The position numbers and the translations under genes were made by a program. Positions 899 to 7,903 of a DNA stretch of 64,000 nucleotides are shown piece after piece; the first letter of the stretch is position 1, and each line of letters opens with the position of its first letter. This DNA comes from a virus, in IMG/VR virus record IMGVR_UViG_3300047557_002769, positions 99,235 through 163,234 of that record. One strand, 5' to 3'. Under the pieces are notes generated by a model. The model had not been told where the DNA came from. It searched no databases and saw only the letters and a list, made by a program, of their open reading frames with translations.

Positions 899-972
899 TG
901 GTGCTGCTAGCAAGAATCGAACTTGCGTTACCGCCTTACCAAGGCGACGTAATACCATTATACTATAGCAGC
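899..972 (-). tRNA. tRNA-Thr(GGT)
   Basis: Acceptor GCTGCTA pairs with TAGCAGC; the anticodon stem is TCGCC/GGCGG with loop TTGGTAA; the T loop is TTCGATT. Discriminator A and CCA are encoded (899-901). It is the 3'-most member of the tRNA cluster. Confidence 0.9.
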
Positions 973-976
973 ATAT

Positions 977-1053
977 TGGCCCGTCCTGAAGAATTCGAAT
1001 CTCCAACCTCTGAGTTCGTAGCCCAGTGCACTATCCAGTTGTGCTAAGGACGG
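977..1053 (-). tRNA. tRNA-Arg(ACG)
   Basis: Acceptor CCGTCCT/AGGACGG, discriminator G, encoded CCA. Anticodon loop CTACGAA gives ACG (A34 is expected to become inosine and read CGN codons). The T loop is normal, TTCGAAT. Confidence 0.9.
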
Positions 1054-1056
1054 TTA

Positions 1057-1131
1057 TGGATGCGGGAGACGGAATCGAACCGCCGTTCTCCAGGTTATGA
1101 GCCTGACGAGATACCTCTTCTCCATCCCGCG
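1057..1131 (-). tRNA. Initiator-like tRNA-Met(CAT)
   Basis: Acceptor CGCGGGA faces TCCCGCA, leaving an unpaired C1-A72, the hallmark of bacterial initiator tRNA. Anticodon loop CTCATAA. Only two of the three G-C pairs usually found at the base of the initiator anticodon stem are present, and position 73 is T rather than A. Confidence 0.85.
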
Positions 1132-1137
1132 TAATTT

Positions 1138-1212
1138 TGGTGGTGATAGTTGGTAACGATCCAACCTGTGAGGCGTATGAAACCCCTGCATATCCGTCTA
1201 TGCTATATCACC
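1138..1212 (-). tRNA. tRNA-Met(CAT), elongator type (or Ile2)
   Basis: Acceptor GGTGATA/TATCACC with encoded CCA; anticodon loop TTCATAC. If C34 were converted to lysidine it would read AUA as Ile. The T loop is ATCGTTA instead of TTCGANN, with A54 and T58 swapped relative to the norm. Confidence 0.8.
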
Positions 1213-1213
1213 G

Positions 1214-1306
1214 TGGTCCCCGAGGTGAGATTCGAACTCACGACCTGCCGCTTATCTGGCGCTGACGGGGTATAAATCCGCTGCTCTACCGCTGAGCTAC
1301 CCGGGG
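1214..1306 (-). tRNA. Atypical 93-nt tRNA, isotype unresolved (Ile-like)
   Basis: Acceptor CCCCGGG/CTCGGGG, D arm GCTC/GAGC, variable AGGTC, T arm GTGAG-TTCGAAT-CTCAC and encoded CCA are all sound. The anticodon region is 18 nt too long. Reading A: a class II-like tRNA whose first hairpin has loop TTTATAC (anticodon TAT) and a mismatched stem. Reading B: an 18-nt insertion between nucleotides 28 and 29; without it a perfect stem GCCGC/GCGGC holds loop CAGATAA (GAT, but A33 instead of T33). Confidence 0.6.
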
Positions 1307-1311
1307 TAAAT

Positions 1312-1401
1312 TGGCCGAGAGTCAGGGAGTCGAACCCTGTGACCGTATTACTACAGTCTACGGATTAGCAATCCGCTGCATTACCATCCTGCCCACTCTC
1401 G
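1312..1401 (-). tRNA. tRNA-Ser(GCT)
   Basis: Class II tRNA of 90 nt. Acceptor CGAGAGT/ACTCTCG, anticodon stem GCGGA/TCCGT, loop TTGCTAA (GCT), long variable arm, T loop TTCGACT, discriminator G, encoded CCA. Confidence 0.9.
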
Positions 1402-1405
1402 TTAT

Positions 1406-1495
1406 TGGAGGAAGCGGTGGGATTCGAACCCACGGACCGCTTTCACGATCGCTAGTTTTCAAGACTAGAGCCATCAACCACTCGACCACGCTTCC
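1406..1495 (-). tRNA. tRNA-Ser(TGA)
   Basis: Class II tRNA of 90 nt. Acceptor GGAAGCG/CGCTTCC, anticodon stem CTAGT/ACTAG with loop CTTGAAA (TGA), long variable arm, T loop TTCGAAT. Discriminator is T, unusual for Ser where G is expected. CCA is encoded. Confidence 0.9.
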
Positions 1496-1500
1496 TTAAT

Positions 1501-1576
1501 TGGTGCCGCCTCTCTGTTACGATCAGAGTTCTCTGGTTCTTCAGACCAGCGTGAGGACCACCTTCACCAAAGCGGC
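1501..1576 (-). tRNA. tRNA-Phe(GAA)
   Basis: Acceptor GCCGCTT/AGGCGGC, anticodon stem CTGGT/ACCAG with loop CTGAAGA (GAA), discriminator A, encoded CCA. The T arm CTCTG/CAGAG carries the swapped loop ATCGTAA. Confidence 0.88.
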
Positions 1577-1580
1577 ATAT

Positions 1581-1654
1581 TGGGTTGAACCGGGGAATCG
1601 AACCCTCTCTACTTGTTTCACGGACAAGTGTGCGACCACTACACTAGGAACAAC
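1581..1654 (-). tRNA. tRNA-His(GTG)
   Basis: Anticodon stem ACTTGT/ACAAGT with loop CCGTGAA gives GTG. An extra 5' G (position -1) faces C73, the His identity pair. Odd points: position 33 is C instead of the near-universal T, and two T-T mismatches lie in the acceptor stem. CCA is encoded. Confidence 0.82.
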
Positions 1655-1660
1655 ATTAAC

Positions 1661-1734
1661 TGGCAGGGATGCTTGGAATCGAACCAAGGACACGGGAATC
1701 AAAATCCTGTGTGATACCATTTCACCACACCCCA
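1661..1734 (-). tRNA. tRNA-Gln(TTG)
   Basis: 5' TGGGGTG faces CATCCCT with an open first pair (T1-T72; Gln tRNAs normally have a weak U1-A72). Anticodon loop TTTTGAT gives TTG; the stem has one A-C mismatch. Discriminator G, encoded CCA. Confidence 0.83.
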
Positions 1735-1744
1735 ACAAAAAAAC

Positions 1745-1820
1745 TGGTCTCCGTAAGAGGATTTGAACCCCTACCGCCTGACCCCAAATCAGGAACGCTG
1801 CCAGATTACGCTATACGGAG
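1745..1820 (-). tRNA. tRNA-Pro(TGG)
   Basis: Acceptor CTCCGTA/TACGGAG, anticodon stem CCTGA/TCAGG with loop TTTGGGG (TGG), T loop TTCAAAT, discriminator A, encoded CCA. Confidence 0.9.
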
Positions 1821-1828
1821 AATAAATT

Positions 1829-1907
1829 TGGTGGACCCAATGACCAGCTACAGTCAATGCCCGCAACCAGGGTTACTGGCGGTCGCTCTTATTGCTACCG
1901 AGGGCCC
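1829..1907 (-). tRNA. Degenerate tRNA-like gene, possibly Val(AAC)
   Basis: GGGCCCT faces TGGGTCC (six pairs) and ends ACCA. A D-like stem CGGT/ACCG and an anticodon-like arm with loop GTAACCC (AAC) follow, but that stem is weak. The T-arm position holds TGACT/GGTCA with loop GTAGCT, lacking TTC. It may be a decayed tRNA or another small RNA. A sound tRNA-Val(TAC) lies at 2307-2381. Confidence 0.4.
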
Positions 1908-1917
1908 ATAAATTGTT

Positions 1918-1993
1918 TGGTGGAAGATAGGGGAATCGAACCCCTGACTCCGACTTGCAAGGCCGGCGTGTTCCCAATTAGCACCAATCCCCC
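1918..1993 (-). tRNA. tRNA-Ala(TGC)
   Basis: Acceptor GGGGGAT/ATCTTCC (two G-T pairs), anticodon stem CCGGC/GTCGG with loop CTTGCAA (TGC), T loop TTCGATT, discriminator A, encoded CCA. Confidence 0.9.
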
Positions 1994-1997
1994 ATTA

Positions 1998-2079
1998 CCA
2001 TATTGAAGCACACTAGCACCACAGCAACCGGCTCAATGGCGGGGAGTCGAACCCACTTTGTTAATGCACTTCAATATGG
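1998..2079 (-). repeat. Inverted-repeat spacer element E1
   Basis: First of four spacer elements bounded by the same inverted repeat. Ends CCATATTGAAG and CTTCAATATGG pair perfectly over 11 bp; on the minus strand TGCATTA/TAGTGTG extends the stem to 18 bp with three G-T pairs. The interior holds a T-arm-like hairpin GGG-TTCGACT-CCC. It ends 4 nt before tRNA-Ala. Confidence 0.75.
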
Positions 2080-2306
2080 CCCCAGCCCCTACACTGGGTA
2101 CATATTGTCTTCTGAGTCGGCAGAAGATTTTATCTCCTGTTGTTCCGCGTTTCTCGGACGACGATCCTCAGGCCTAGACATCCGTATGCGAAGTCCACCA
2201 TCACTCGCATATTTTTAATGACGGGGCTTTCACCCGCCTCGGTATTGTTTGCTCTGCTAACCACTAGGGAATGTGGCAACAAGAGTACCGGGACTAATTG
2301 TTAATC
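2080..2306 (-). other. Unassigned structured segment within the tRNA cluster
   Basis: No credible ORF or standard tRNA in 227 bases. Minus-strand folds visible: CCCGGT near 2292 can pair with GCTGGG next to a GCCA at 2077-2080, like a distant acceptor stem; GCGGG-TGAAAGC-CCCGT; TCTTCTG/CAGAAGA; CCCAG/CTGGG. A D-arm-like AGTGGTTAGCAG is present. It may be a large tRNA-like RNA or a decayed gene. Confidence 0.35.
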
Positions 2307-2381
2307 TGGTGCATCGTGAGAGGATTGAACTCCCGACCTTGGCCTTGTAAGGGCCCTGCTCTACCGCTGAGCTAACGATGC
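2307..2381 (-). tRNA. tRNA-Val(TAC)
   Basis: Acceptor GCATCGT/ACGATGC, D stem GCTC/GAGC, anticodon loop CTTACAA (TAC) on a four-pair stem GGCC/GGCC, T loop TTCAATC, discriminator A, encoded CCA. Confidence 0.88.
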
Positions 2382-2387
2382 GTAATA

Positions 2388-2480
2388 TGGTGGGTGTCCA
2401 CGGAGTCGAACCGCGAATGTTTACCACGAGGGACCGGATTTACAGTCCGGTGCAGCACACGCCTTAGCTGCAAGACACCC
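2388..2480 (-). tRNA. tRNA-Tyr(GTA)
   Basis: Class II tRNA of 93 nt. Acceptor GGGTGTC/GACACCC, anticodon stem CCGGA/TCCGG with loop CTGTAAA (GTA), long variable arm, T loop TTCGACT, discriminator A, encoded CCA. Confidence 0.9.
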
Positions 2481-2488
2481 ATAAAACT

Positions 2489-2565
2489 TGGCTGACCAGG
2501 TAGGGATCGAACCCACGACATCGTGATTAACAGTCACGCGCAACTACCAACTGTGCTACTGGTCA
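2489..2565 (-). tRNA. tRNA-Asn(GTT)
   Basis: Acceptor TGACCAG/CTGGTCA, anticodon stem CGTGA/TCACG with loop CTGTTAA (GTT), T loop TTCGATC, discriminator G, encoded CCA. Confidence 0.9.
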
Positions 2566-2573
2566 AAAAACTC

Positions 2574-2649
2574 TGGAGCGGGTAATCGGTTTCGAACCGA
2601 TGGCCTTAACTTTGGCAAAGTTACGCTCTACCAACTGAGCTATACCCGC
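2574..2649 (-). tRNA. tRNA-Gly(GCC)
   Basis: Acceptor GCGGGTA/TACCCGC, D stem GCTC/GAGC, anticodon stem TAACT/AGTTA with loop TTGCCAA (GCC), T loop TTCGAAA, discriminator T as usual for Gly, encoded CCA. Confidence 0.92.
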
Positions 2650-2652
2650 TTA

Positions 2653-2765
2653 ACCATATTGAAACACACTCGACGGAATCGAACCGTCCACCTCTGCTCC
2701 ATACGGGGCAAGGCTGTATCCAGTCAGTAGGCTTGTACTTTGCCTTGAATGTGCTTCAATATGGT
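2653..2765 (-). repeat. Inverted-repeat element E2 with embedded tRNA-like T arm
   Basis: Ends ACCATATTGAAGCACA and TGTGTTTCAATATGGT pair over 16 bp with one minus-strand G-T. Inside, CACATTC/GAGTGTG continues the stem exactly as an acceptor stem would, followed by a standard T arm GACGG-TTCGATT-CCGTC. No good anticodon arm was found and no CCA follows. It ends 3 nt before tRNA-Gly. Confidence 0.75.
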
Positions 2766-2900
2766 CTCGGGTTTGCACCGAGATCACCGACTAAACGGCT
2801 TTCGCTAGTGATTCACTCATATTACTTGCAGGTCATATGAGGCTCTATGCGATGCTTAAAGACTGATTAAAAGGGCCTGCATTAGTTACCAGTCTCAAAA
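2766..2900 (-). other. Unassigned structured segment between elements E3 and E2
   Basis: No ORF or standard tRNA in 135 bases. The minus strand ends with a T-arm-like hairpin CTCGG-TGCAAAC-CCGAG directly joined to ACCA but without an acceptor strand. Other pairings: TGCAGG/CCTGCA, CTCATAT/ATATGAG and ATCAC/GTGAT. Possibly a tRNA-derived RNA. Confidence 0.35.
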
Positions 2901-2986
2901 ACCATATTGAAACATACTGCACTAGTCAATTGAATACAGTTGACCAGTCTTCCTTATCAGTGAAGCGCAATACGTTTCAATATGGT
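2901..2986 (-). repeat. Inverted-repeat element E3 with anticodon-arm-like hairpin
   Basis: Minus strand begins ACCATATTGAAACGTATTGC and ends GCAGTATGTTTCAATATGGT, a 20-bp stem with two G-T pairs. Inside are an anticodon-arm-like hairpin CTTCA-CTGATAA-GGAAG, whose loop equals that of tRNA-Ile(GAT), and a second hairpin ACTGGTCAA/TTGACTAGT. Its first bases are the CCA of tRNA-Leu. Confidence 0.75.
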
Positions 2987-3059
2987 GCCCCAGAGGAGAC
3001 TCGAACTCCTAAAATTTGGCTTCTAAGACCAACACGTATACCAATTCCGTCACCAGGGC
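2983..3059 (-). tRNA. tRNA-Leu(TAG), short variable arm
   Basis: Acceptor GCCCTGG/CTGGGGC, Leu-type D arm, anticodon stem TTGGT/GCCAA with loop CTTAGAA (TAG), T loop TTCGAGT, discriminator A, CCA. The variable region is only about five bases (ATTTT), whereas bacterial Leu tRNAs normally have a long variable arm. Confidence 0.88.
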
Positions 3060-3098
3060 ATTATAACAATTATATATTATCTTATTTTTAAAATCAAC

Positions 3099-3173
3099 TG
3101 GCGGTCCCAAGGAGTAACGATCTCCTTCTTCATGCGTGACAGGCATGCGTGCGTCCATGAACACTTTGAGACC
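3099..3173 (-). tRNA. tRNA-Asp(GTC)
   Basis: Acceptor GGTCTCA/TGGGACC, anticodon stem CATGC/GCATG with loop CTGTCAC (GTC), discriminator G, encoded CCA. T arm AAGGAG/CTCCTT carries the swapped loop ATCGTTA. Confidence 0.87.
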
Positions 3174-3414
3174 TTATGAATTTGTTAAGCGCCAGCCACC
3201 ACATACATCGGCTGCATTATCCGCAAATTATCCCGGGTGCGGTTATGATCGGATAAGCTCTTTTACAGATAACTTATCTTCACCTAGGGTACGTCACAAT
3301 AATAATCAGCAGGCGGGTGCCATGGTACGTCCTTGAACCGTCACCTTTTTACTATGCTAGATCTTGCAAAATCATCACACAGTGCCTTTTATTAGAGACA
3401 CACTTAACAAAACT
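3174..3414. other. Non-coding spacer in tRNA cluster, some hairpins
   Basis: No tRNA recognised and no convincing gene in about 240 bases. A perfect hairpin AGATAA-C-TTATCT is visible near 3266. Function unknown; it may hold a degenerate tRNA. Confidence 0.3.
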
Positions 3415-3489
3415 TGGTACTCCTGAAGGGTTTCGATCCCTCTTTTCCGCCTTGAAAGGGCAGCGTCCTAGCCAGTAGACGACAGGAGC
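3415..3489 (-). tRNA. tRNA-Glu(TTC)
   Basis: Acceptor GCTCCTG/CAGGAGT, anticodon stem CTGCC/GGCGG with loop CTTTCAA (TTC), discriminator A, encoded CCA. The T loop is ATCGAAA, with A54 but a normal A58. Confidence 0.88.
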
Positions 3490-3496
3490 ATTATTC

Positions 3497-3570
3497 TGGC
3501 ATCCCGGGAGGGACTCGAACCCCCACAAACGGTTTTGGAGACCGCTATGCTGCCATTACACCACCGAGAT
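3497..3570 (-). tRNA. tRNA-Trp(CCA)
   Basis: Acceptor ATCTCGG/CCGGGAT, anticodon stem GCGGT/ACCGT with loop CTCCAAA (CCA), T loop TTCGAGT, discriminator G, encoded 3' CCA. Confidence 0.9.
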
Positions 3571-3571
3571 A

Positions 3572-3883
3572 TTAATAACCGTTTGCGAATACGGTTTTTT
3601 GAGTAACTTCTTGAACAAAGGCACCGCATGTATACGTATCACCTTGTCTTGCGACGTTACGACCGTTCGCAAATACATTAGGGCTAAACGAGTTGATAGT
3701 TGTTGAATAAACAGGTGGGCAGTGCGTGTGTGGAGTATTCGTATCATCTTTACGATGTATTCCTACCCCTGCAACAAACACATTCGTAGAACAACTTAAA
3801 GTTCTAATAAGCCCCGGAACAATACATACCGGGTGTCCCGTGTTAACAATATCAACCTCGTCGCCTCTTGCAATTAATGGCAT
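3572..3883 (-). CDS. PAAR-repeat tail spike tip protein (gp5.4-like)
   Basis: A 103-residue protein beginning MPLIARGDEVD with internal repeats of the PAAR type: NVFVAGVGIHRKDDTNTPH, then SPNVFANGRNVARQGDTYTCG and KTVFANGY. PAAR proteins form the sharpened zinc-binding cone that caps the central spike of contractile tails; T4 gp5.4 is the phage prototype with about the same length. His and Cys residues able to bind the metal are present. The start is set by AAAAGGAGGATAAT before ATG at 3883. It lies inside the tRNA cluster, with its own late-promoter-like box, so it can be read late while the tRNAs are read early. Confidence 0.88.
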   Translation of the reverse strand: MPLIARGDEVDIVNTGHPVCIVPGLIRTLSCSTNVFVAGVGIHRKDDTNTPHTHCPPVYSTTINSFSPNVFANGRNVARQGDTYTCGAFVQEVTQKTVFANGY

Positions 3884-3897
3884 ATTATCCTCCTTTT

Positions 3898-3906
3898 TAT
3901 ATTTAG
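3898..3906 (-). promoter_or_regulatory. Late-promoter-like box of the PAAR gene
   Basis: Minus strand CTAAATATA followed by AAAAGGAGG, the same arrangement as before the endolysin gene. It deviates from TATAAATA at the first bases. Confidence 0.45.
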
Positions 3907-3915
3907 GATAATAAC

Positions 3916-3993
3916 TGGAGTATCGGGTCAGATTCGAACTGACGGTTTTACGGATTTGCAATCCGTTGCCTTTGACCGCTCGGCCACCGATAC
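3916..3993 (-). tRNA. tRNA-Cys(GCA)
   Basis: Acceptor GTATCGG/CCGATAC, anticodon stem ACGGA/TCCGT with loop TTGCAAA (GCA), T loop TTCGAAT, discriminator T as required for Cys, encoded CCA. Confidence 0.9.
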
Positions 3994-3996
3994 ACT

Positions 3997-4121
3997 ACCA
4001 TATTGAAACACACTGCACTATCTAGATGCTTAAGTAGCTGTCACCGGCCGGTTTGTATCTACTATCTACACCCTACGCTCTCTTGGCCAAGAGAATGGCT
4101 TGCAATGTGCTTCAATATGGT
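3997..4121 (-). repeat. Inverted-repeat element E4
   Basis: Longest element (125 nt). Minus strand ACCATATTGAAGCACATTGC pairs with GCAGTGTGTTTCAATATGGT over 20 bp with two G-T pairs. The interior contains palindromic hairpins (CTCTTGG/CCAAGAG, ACCGG/CCGGT). It starts on the CCA of tRNA-Lys and ends 3 nt before tRNA-Cys. Confidence 0.75.
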
Positions 4122-4191
4122 AGGGCTGGAGGGTAACGATCCCTCTTCTACGGATTAAAAGTCCGTTGCTTCACCTTAAAGCTTCAACCCC
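4118..4191 (-). tRNA. tRNA-Lys(TTT)
   Basis: Acceptor GGGGTTG/CAGCCCT, anticodon stem ACGGA/TCCGT with loop CTTTTAA (TTT), discriminator A, CCA shared with element E4. T arm GAGGG/CCCTC with swapped loop ATCGTTA. Confidence 0.88.
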
Positions 4192-4195
4192 AATA

Positions 4196-4269
4196 TGGTA
4201 CCCACAACAGGTAACGATCCTGTGTCTCTCGGTTATCAGCCGAGTGCTCTACCTTTGAGCTATGCGGGT
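4196..4269 (-). tRNA. tRNA-Ile(GAT)
   Basis: First tRNA of the cluster in transcription order. Acceptor ACCCGCA/TGTGGGT, D stem GCTC/GAGC, anticodon stem CTCGG/CCGAG with loop CTGATAA (GAT), discriminator A, encoded CCA. T arm with swapped loop ATCGTTA. Confidence 0.9.
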
Positions 4270-7174: not shown

Positions 7175-7473
7175 CGAATCACAATATCGTTATACACATC
7201 ATCAAGCGCTCCGTCATGATGACCATAGAGATCAAGATTCACATCAGTAGTAGGGAATAGCTGATCGAACAGTTCCTCACTTTTGGTAGTCTCGATGCTT
7301 ACATTGACGCTCTTCCATTGACGAAGAACATGCAGTAGATCATTAATCATCTGTGTAGTATGCAGCGGATCCACATAGGACATAATTTCATATTTTTCAC
7401 GATGATTAGACAAAAAGATGTTAACAGTAAGATCTTCGGTCTTACACGACAGATTTAGTGTTTCATTACTCAT
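7171..7473 (-). CDS. Hypothetical protein, 100 aa
   Basis: Not recognised. An acidic 100-residue soluble protein with alternating beta-like and helical stretches, no Cys-rich motif and no membrane segment. The start follows TAAGGAATATC, the ribosome site overlapping the stop of the preceding 30-aa gene; its stop overlaps the start of the MazG-like gene. It is probably co-transcribed from the promoter at 7734-7762. Confidence 0.65.
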   Translation of the reverse strand: MSNETLNLSCKTEDLTVNIFLSNHREKYEIMSYVDPLHTTQMINDLLHVLRQWKSVNVSIETTKSEELFDQLFPTTDVNLDLYGHHDGALDDVYNDIVIR

Positions 7474-7481
7474 GATATTCC

Positions 7482-7574
7482 TTAAAAGAAGAGAAGAACA
7501 ATTGGGCTAACAATCATACTGATCACCGTAAAGAGAATGAACAGTAGAATACAAGAACCAACAAATTGAAGCAT
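7482..7574 (-). CDS. 30-aa single-pass membrane peptide
   Basis: Tiny ORF starting ATG at 7574 and almost entirely hydrophobic (MLQFVGSCILLFILF then IVSPIVLLFF), enough for one transmembrane helix. AAAGG lies eight bases before the ATG, and the stop overlaps the ribosome site of the next gene. Function unknown; similar micro-membrane proteins occur elsewhere in this window. Confidence 0.5.
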   Translation of the reverse strand: MLQFVGSCILLFILFTVISMIVSPIVLLFF

Positions 7575-7733
7575 GATATAGCCTTTGTTAGCGCGCGCAG
7601 AAAAATTCCGGGGGTTTAGCGCGCGGAAAAATTTTTAAAAAAGGGGGGACCGTTAACGCCTGTAAACTAGTTGTATAGAGCAACTATACTTTTTTTCAGA
7701 AGTTGAGTGCCACAGTACTATAGTACCACTGTT
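7575..7733 (-). other. Leader region with imperfect GC-rich repeats
   Basis: No gene. Two imperfect copies of TTAGCGCGCG(CA)GAAAAATT occur at 7588-7609 and 7616-7636, followed by a purine run and a small hairpin GTTG/CAAC at 7670-7684. They lie in the long 5' leader downstream of the promoter 7734-7762. Confidence 0.4.
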
Positions 7734-7762
7734 ATTATACTACAAAGCCGTTAATACGGCAA
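7734..7762 (-). promoter_or_regulatory. Sigma70-type promoter
   Basis: Minus strand TTGCCG, 17 bases, TATAAT. It overlaps the 3' end of the small HTH-like gene and would drive the units from 7574 leftward after an unusually long leader. Confidence 0.65.
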
Positions 7763-7903
7763 CTCCTCGTCCCTATCCATAGTCTCAGCCACAGCCTCTA
7801 CGAAAGACATGGGTACGTTAAGAAACCTTGCGGTCTCTGCATGCGACATGCCCTCTTCCAGGCACTCTTGAATATCCAGCATGAGTTCTGACATTTTCGA
7901 CAT
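7751..7903 (-). CDS. Small HTH-like protein, 50 aa
   Basis: A 50-residue protein whose middle reads EEGMSHAETARFLNVPMSFV, a good match to a helix-turn-helix pattern (helix, turn after the small residue, recognition helix starting VPMSF). A similar motif is in the 40-aa gene at 15238-15360. The start ATG at 7903 follows GGACTAAGAAT; a longer frame upstream runs through the preceding gene and is not credible. A DNA-binding or regulatory role is only an inference from the motif. Confidence 0.6.
   Translation of the reverse strand: MSKMSELMLDIQECLEEGMSHAETARFLNVPMSFVEAVAETMDRDEELPY

Follow-up and report, generated by a model that had tools for sequence, protein, structure and literature searches.

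The stretch of DNA analysed here (the window; 64,000 nucleotides (nt), positions 99235–163234 of the 163,234-base virus record IMGVR_UViG_3300047557_002769) begins with an array of transfer RNA (tRNA) genes on its minus strand. The array (window positions 899–4269) comprises 23 tRNAs called by ARAGORN, all in one orientation, 20 of which reach the Rfam tRNA gathering score, and includes four elements, E1–E4, that are the subject of this study; most junctions between the tRNAs of the window are free of such elements. The source phage, judged from sequence, is a member of the T4 superfamily; it encodes a tail sheath, portal, terminase and major head protein of T4-type families, and the closest named relatives of its head protein are those of Pelagibacter phage Mosig (66.7% identity) and Methylophilales phage Melnitz-1 (65.8%).

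All four elements are closed by a common stem, hereafter the clamp, with CCATATTGAA-RYACATT on the 5' side and AGTGTRY-TTCAATATGG on the 3' side. Exact CCATATTGAA occurs eight times in the 64 kilobases (kb), and these copies are the eight arms of E1–E4; when one mismatch is allowed, 14 matches are found against 5.7 expected, a number equalled in none of 100 shuffles. E1 (82 nt; 1998–2079, minus strand) pairs a 5' arm at 2063–2079 with a 3' arm at 1998–2014 and scores 57 bits with a stem covariance model. It contains a T-arm-like hairpin, GGGTTCGACTCCC; the order of its parts, a T arm and then a 5'-half-like stretch, might suggest a permuted tRNA or a self-cleaving RNA. It ends 4 nt short of tRNA-Ala, and a homologous unit of 85% identity is present in a related locus (L100, 3589–3668). 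E2 (113 nt; 2653–2765, minus strand; clamp arms 2749–2765 and 2653–2669; 51.1 bits, z −6.5) has a cloverleaf-like interior built from a D-arm-like, a long central and a T-arm-like hairpin, with no recognisable anticodon arm. E3 (86 nt; 2901–2986, minus strand; 53.5 bits, z −9.7) combines the clamp with two hairpins in a three-way junction, and the CCA of tRNA-Leu (2983–3059) forms its 5' end; L080 and L089 carry this interior too, but there the clamp is another one and lacks the ACATT/AGTGT part. E4 (125 nt; 3997–4121, minus strand; 51.1 bits, z −5.0) encloses internal hairpins within its clamp and starts on the CCA of tRNA-Lys (4118–4191).

A sequence-only reading of this DNA had described the inverted repeats of the four elements and their junctions with the tRNAs, and both are present as described: E3 and E4 start on the upstream CCA, and E1, E2 and E4 stop 3–4 nt before tRNA-Ala, tRNA-Gly and tRNA-Cys, respectively. 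It had also recognised tRNA-like arms in E1–E3, which are clear only in E2; the supposed anticodon arm of E3 is a hairpin kept in two relatives, but no tRNA is detected there at permissive E-values. Indeed, neither the Rfam tRNA model (RF00005) nor any other family of Rfam 15 matches E1–E4 at the gathering score or at E-values up to 5.

The elements fold better on the minus strand (−34.5, −49.6, −42.6 and −49.0 kcal/mol for E1 to E4) than on the plus strand (−26.8, −44.2, −31.0 and −38.5 kcal/mol). Likewise, the stem covariance model, which was built from 57 sequences with E1 and E3 among them, gives E1–E4 51–57 bits on the minus strand versus 33–37 on the plus strand, and has no further match in the 64 kb. 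An earlier proposal that deviations from perfect pairing become G-T wobbles on the minus strand only is thus borne out in the window, where all four elements favour that strand, but it fails as a universal rule, because pair 8 of the clamp is often A.C or C.A in relatives with other outer stems.

These relatives are numerous. The pattern CCATATTGAA-N(45-75)-TTCAATATGG was found in at least 120 stretches of IMG/VR contigs, and among the matches listed nearly all lie within tRNA arrays; patterns in which pairs 6–10 were left free gave at least 120 and at least 119 stretches. In 84,980 cellular genomes, the same pattern produced 24 matches that look like chance, since none has the RYACATT/AGTGTRY inner consensus and no ARAGORN tRNA is present at 22 of the 24 loci. 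The clamp is confined to phage tRNA arrays. A search of the collected loci by inner stem and pairing, at a score of 33 or more, yielded 617 elements (536 distinct) in 295 loci; pairing is part of this score, and a reversed-sequence control, run at the looser cut that preceded the threshold of 33, returned 84 raw hits, so the pairing statistics given below are drawn from sets that were not chosen by pairing.

The position of the 617 elements is far from random: 420 (68%) lie within 20 nt of a tRNA, compared with 24% of 2873 positions drawn at random from these loci, while 11 are more than 1 kb from a tRNA and five belong to tRNA-free loci. The strand of the nearest tRNA is that of the element in 566 of 601 cases. 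A CCA start is present in 513 elements and is common to an ARAGORN tRNA in 294 of them; tRNAs abut both ends in 94 of these. Some elements instead come after promoters or after non-tRNA units with a CCA end. At four loci (L005, L024, L112 and L120), a TTGACC-N17-TACAAT-like promoter, identified by eye, is located just upstream, and the element is the first unit of the array rather than following a tRNA. Element length ranges from 57 to 259 nt among 317 cluster representatives. We also assembled 38 carrier records, consisting of the window's record and 37 contigs longer than 100 kb picked by hand from among such contigs; the stem model matches 37 of them, the strict pattern 32 (reversed-pattern control, 0), and 27 encode a T4-type head protein.

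Pairing within the clamp was assessed on 117 non-redundant elements selected by the outer 10 base pairs (bp) only and oriented by their tRNAs. Across pairs 11–17, 800 of 819 cells hold standard pairs (605 Watson-Crick and 195 G.U), with 8 A.C and 11 other combinations; pair 16 is U.G in 96 elements and pair 11 is G.U in 62. The earlier view of the elements as structured units in which a single folded strand, that of the tRNA sense, is under selection is supported by these counts. For pairs 6–10, a set of 191 non-redundant elements was used, of which 64 have the exact core used for initial selection. Pairs 6, 7, 9 and 10 are standard in 191, 189, 181 and 191 elements, respectively, whereas pair 8 is standard in 106 and, read on the tRNA-sense strand, A.C or C.A in 74; some deviations are therefore not G.U wobbles. 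Since 162 of 163 pair-8 A.C/C.A elements with a tRNA within 1 kb stand in tRNA sense, the mismatch sits in the transcript. In 57 diverse elements, found partly by pairing, 96.5% of 1026 cells pair, and both sides have changed in 12 of 18 pairs, which none of 500 shuffles reaches. The clamp is thus conserved, covarying and strand-specific, with better pairing on the tRNA-sense strand; the repeats are neither random nor missing in related phages, either of which would have refuted the earlier reading, but recur in many relatives with covarying stems.

In contrast to the constant clamp, the interior, or cargo, is highly variable, the 536 distinct elements falling into 317 interior clusters. A given interior can be seen under several outer stems and next to different tRNAs. 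When the interior of one family, F3, was searched for without regard to the clamp, it was clamped at 44 of 46 places, the other two being truncated at an end but still showing partial arms, and it was found under 14 different outer stems; the interior of a second family, F9, was clamped at 14 of 14 places under six outer stems. As the clamp finder fires at 281 of 2000 random places, this association is far above background. The units do not proliferate, in that one cluster is present twice in only two of 172 multi-element loci. They can also be missing as a whole: in L180 and L200, a tRNA ending in CCA is followed by an element, whereas in L155 the tRNA, with CCAGTTTATGG, leads on to the same following tRNA, a clean empty site. 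Compared with L180, an 11-nt spacer takes the place of the element in L155, and there is no target duplication at this one well-resolved site. A screen for empty sites with a loose cut returned 89 candidates, and several of the 25 inspected were unclean (another element in the subject, or a match to the tRNAs only); the presence/absence argument relies on L155 versus L180 and L200. Cargos are therefore interchangeable, and the whole unit is present or absent. At L026 (4762) and L080 (4165), a second closed unit with the stem CCATAATATGTGTGC/GCACACATATTATGG lies just upstream of the element, so tandem placement is possible.

At least some cargos are structured in their own right, as covariation shows for two families. 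In the alignment of E4 with its relatives in L026, L097 and L051 (four sequences), both partners have changed in 14 of the 39 predicted pairs, and 13 of these pairs belong to the interior enclosed by the clamp. F3 adopts a three-way fold whose first hairpin covaries and lies outside the search pattern, the invariant interior stretch of F3 being part of that pattern; pair 23–32 is G-C in 10 and A-U in nine of 19 sequences, pair 25–30 occurs as four pair types, and 599 of 608 cells pair in a structure derived from the same alignment. This internal covariation in the E4 and F3 families indicates that these interiors are not filler. Relatives of E2 are present at 11 loci, eight of which span at least 60% of its length, and both-sided changes affect seven of 36 predicted pairs among eight sequences. 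T-arm-like hairpins whose stem has 4 bp or more were detected in 19 of the 317 clusters, whereas shuffled sequences predict 0.65, and they often lie, like the T arm of a tRNA, 0–2 nt away from the inner stem; tRNA likeness thus appears real for a minority.

Other explanations have to be weighed against these data. The elements might be processing spacers only, with a long helix that directs cleavage of the tRNA transcript or protects its ends, and an interior of filler sequence. Their exact position between tRNAs, the CCA start so often common to a tRNA, the ability to abut the next tRNA, and the great diversity and thermodynamic weakness of the interiors would all suit such a role. We nonetheless consider it unlikely, as interior families recur across phages under different clamps and with internal covariation, and the majority of tRNA junctions in the window do without an element. 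Alternatively, the elements might be degenerate or unusual tRNAs, in which the acceptor stem was lengthened and the body decayed or was repurposed. The T-arm-like hairpins and the cloverleaf-like E2 family point in this direction, but the lack of a tRNA call at E1–E4 under permissive E-values, the fact that just one of 617 elements shares more than 15 nt with an ARAGORN tRNA, and the absence of tRNA marks from most interiors make this origin improbable for the family. The earlier suggestion that the units derive from tRNAs accordingly has partial support, from the T-arm-bearing clusters and the E2 family, and none from the majority of interiors, which have no tRNA feature.

Integron attC sites have conserved paired ends, a variable centre and strand-specific folding, and the elements could be imagined as DNA recombination sites of this type, a folded single DNA strand serving to exchange tRNA-gene cassettes. 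The elements share these traits with attC, as well as a strand asymmetry and neighbours that are shuffled. However, tyrosine recombinase (PF00589) was detected in none of the 38 carrier records, against 14 of 14 control genomes, so this explanation lacks its enzyme, although a host enzyme is possible. The ends of the elements are CCATANNNNN/NNNNNTATGG and not the attC end boxes, RYYYAAC/GTTRRRY; the elements further differ in their tRNA-array context and in structured, conserved cargos, whose internal covariation would be unexpected for attC, and interiors are not tied to one upstream gene. We find this explanation very hard to credit. The earlier idea of recombination cassettes for exchanging tRNA genes finds no support in that form: interiors can be exchanged, but the variable unit is the element as such. 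Mobile DNA of the miniature inverted-repeat transposable element (MITE) type, with the stem as terminal inverted repeats, would likewise account for inverted ends, presence/absence polymorphism and the placement of one unit beside different genes. The same cluster is, however, scarcely ever repeated within a locus, the L155/L180 comparison reveals a spacer instead of a target duplication, and the wobbles are strand-specific, all of which leaves a MITE origin with very little probability.

The explanation we favour, with a probability of roughly 0.7, is that E1–E4 are four different small RNA genes built on one architecture, a generic clamp around a working cargo, and co-transcribed with the tRNAs. 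The clamp, of 17–18 bp, would begin on or supply the CCA and close a cargo of about 25–220 nt. The elements would be transcribed together with the phage tRNAs, and in the nascent transcript the clamp would fold and set the unit apart from its tRNA neighbours. Trimming could then be carried out by host tRNA-end enzymes, with ribonuclease (RNase) P on the downstream side and 3'-end processing at the CCA upstream, to give an RNA with paired, exonuclease-resistant ends. The cargo would be the active part; our best guess is that it binds a host protein or RNA, for instance as a decoy for tRNA-attacking ribonucleases, an idea drawn from context alone. The titles or abstracts of published papers present phage tRNAs as counter-defence (for example PMC10264068 and PMC12851939).

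Several observations weigh against this clamp-and-cargo architecture of working RNAs. Transcription, release, stability and all targets are inferred. Singletons make up 210 of the 317 interior clusters, so that conservation can be judged for a minority of cargos. Folded alone, the 317 representative interiors have a mean z of −0.48, with 10% below −2, a stability scarcely above that of shuffled sequence; covariation was therefore used as the evidence for structure. The upstream tRNA and the element claim one CCA, so one transcript may not give both intact. A phage RNase III was detected in none of the 38 carrier records (control: eight of 14 genomes), and processing would therefore fall to the host, whose own enzyme could serve. 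Finally, the outer 10 bp are identical in 18% of within-locus pairs and in 13% between loci; outer stems are scarcely more alike within a locus, and there is therefore no sign of one dedicated stem-reading protein. Concerted evolution of the outer stems within a phage, as such a protein might impose, has correspondingly little in its favour.

A broader proposal builds on the clamp-and-cargo architecture and is offered tentatively, as we think it possible rather than probable. The elements may constitute a phage cassette system for RNA effectors, in which a generic clamp carries, matures and protects any small structured RNA placed in the tRNA array, and an open-ended, exchanged library of cargos is aimed, each at a different host factor, for instance at tRNA-cleaving defence nucleases. 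If true, this would be an RNA counterpart of exchangeable anti-defence genes. The reason why phages keep tRNA arrays is still debated. According to the present survey, many large T4-like phages also keep modular non-tRNA RNAs in these arrays, one to several per phage and of hundreds of kinds, which are missed by tRNA finders and by Rfam and for which the stem model offers a direct way of detection. If expressed, they would amount to a large reservoir of phage effector RNAs that is still unexploited, and the array would be an RNA island and not a translation aid alone.

Among known systems, T4 rnaC (species 1) and rnaD (species 2) resemble the elements in being small RNAs annotated beside tRNA-Arg in a T4-type tRNA cluster, and rnaC also has a T-arm-like hairpin near its closing stem. 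In contrast, they have no clamp, the stem model has no match in the T4 genome, and no interchangeable cargo is seen in that one record. The constant/variable logic is that of arrays of the clustered regularly interspaced short palindromic repeats (CRISPR) type, which have a constant scaffold and an open-ended set of variable inserts. The likeness goes no further, for the elements have one closing helix per insert, their inserts are conserved from phage to phage, and the copies lie scattered among tRNA genes. GOLLD and ROOL are described as phage RNAs of unknown function that are often near tRNA islands (PMC12286853); unlike the elements, they are hundreds of nt long, each with a single conserved fold (PMC12286853, for GOLLD). 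One carrier array, L085, includes a GOLLD RNA (7302–7765) that encloses a tRNA (7365–7435); a clamped element follows 5 nt on, at 7770–7862. For T4-like cyanophages, another paper mentions manA and wcaG (PMC2864571).

In 30 further loci compared with Rfam 15, none of the matches listed lies within an element; they are tRNAs, one GOLLD, one permuted transfer-messenger RNA (tmRNA) and one group I intron. No description of such an element was found among the listed titles and abstract starts of the open PubMed Central literature; the ten-base arm sequence occurs in 34 of its papers, and the 20 listed have titles on other subjects. The family is apparently undescribed. To our knowledge, no RNA family combines one constant clamp with hundreds of unrelated cargos, and for this reason we call the architecture new in kind; a sceptical reader might instead class it with the small phage RNAs near tRNA genes, as a large new branch of these.

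BLAST searches with E4 and two other single elements gave no match among the INPHARED phages, as interiors diverge too fast; an isolate was found by the stem model instead. When 12 records of named phages were scanned whole with this model under stricter filters, the sole phage matched was Synechococcus phage BUCT-ZZ01 (ON615601.1), whose host is S. elongatus PCC 7942. Its element (123303–123389, minus strand; 35 bits) is located directly after tRNA-Lys, and a second match (117247–117369), nearly symmetric between the strands, overlaps a permuted tmRNA. As an isolate growing on a laboratory cyanobacterium carries a member, the family is testable. Directly past the BUCT-ZZ01 element (L387, 7680–7810, minus strand) lies a second unit with an ACACAAT/ATTGTGT inner sequence in its closing stem, and the variety of clamps may exceed that of the stem model. 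Permuted tmRNA genes are found in two phage tRNA arrays, those of BUCT-ZZ01 (L387, 1362–1792) and L117 (4826–5042); the former has the ARAGORN-predicted tag ANDETFSMALAA and is the gene overlapped by the clamp-like inverted repeat.

The array of the window may contain several further closed RNA units, all on the minus strand. Directly upstream of E1 is a 227-nt unannotated RNA-like unit (2080–2306) with a TGAGGATCGTCGTCC stretch and a hairpin-GCCA end, which is kept in nine fetched loci, over at least 60% of its length in five. The gap between tRNA-Asp and tRNA-Glu is occupied by a 241-nt unit (3174–3414) whose ends pair via a different long terminal stem and whose final ~70 nt are found again in six loci. 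An 88-nt unit between tRNA-Pro and tRNA-Ala (1824–1911) has a tRNA-like fold, with a GGGCCC/GGGTCC acceptor followed by ACCA; it lacks a TTCRA T loop and a tRNA call, and has no relative in the fetched loci. The stretch that separates E3 and E2 (2766–2900), also without a relative among those loci, ends in a CTCGG-TGCAAAC-CCGAG hairpin that abuts the CCA of E2. Elsewhere, units upstream of elements in L008, L021, L083 and L095, where Rfam has no match, contain a GCAGACTAAAGAT...TAGATAGTCC stretch that we take to be group-I-like. A group I intron that reaches the gathering score is present in L012 (13185–13378), on the same contig as clamped elements and outside them.

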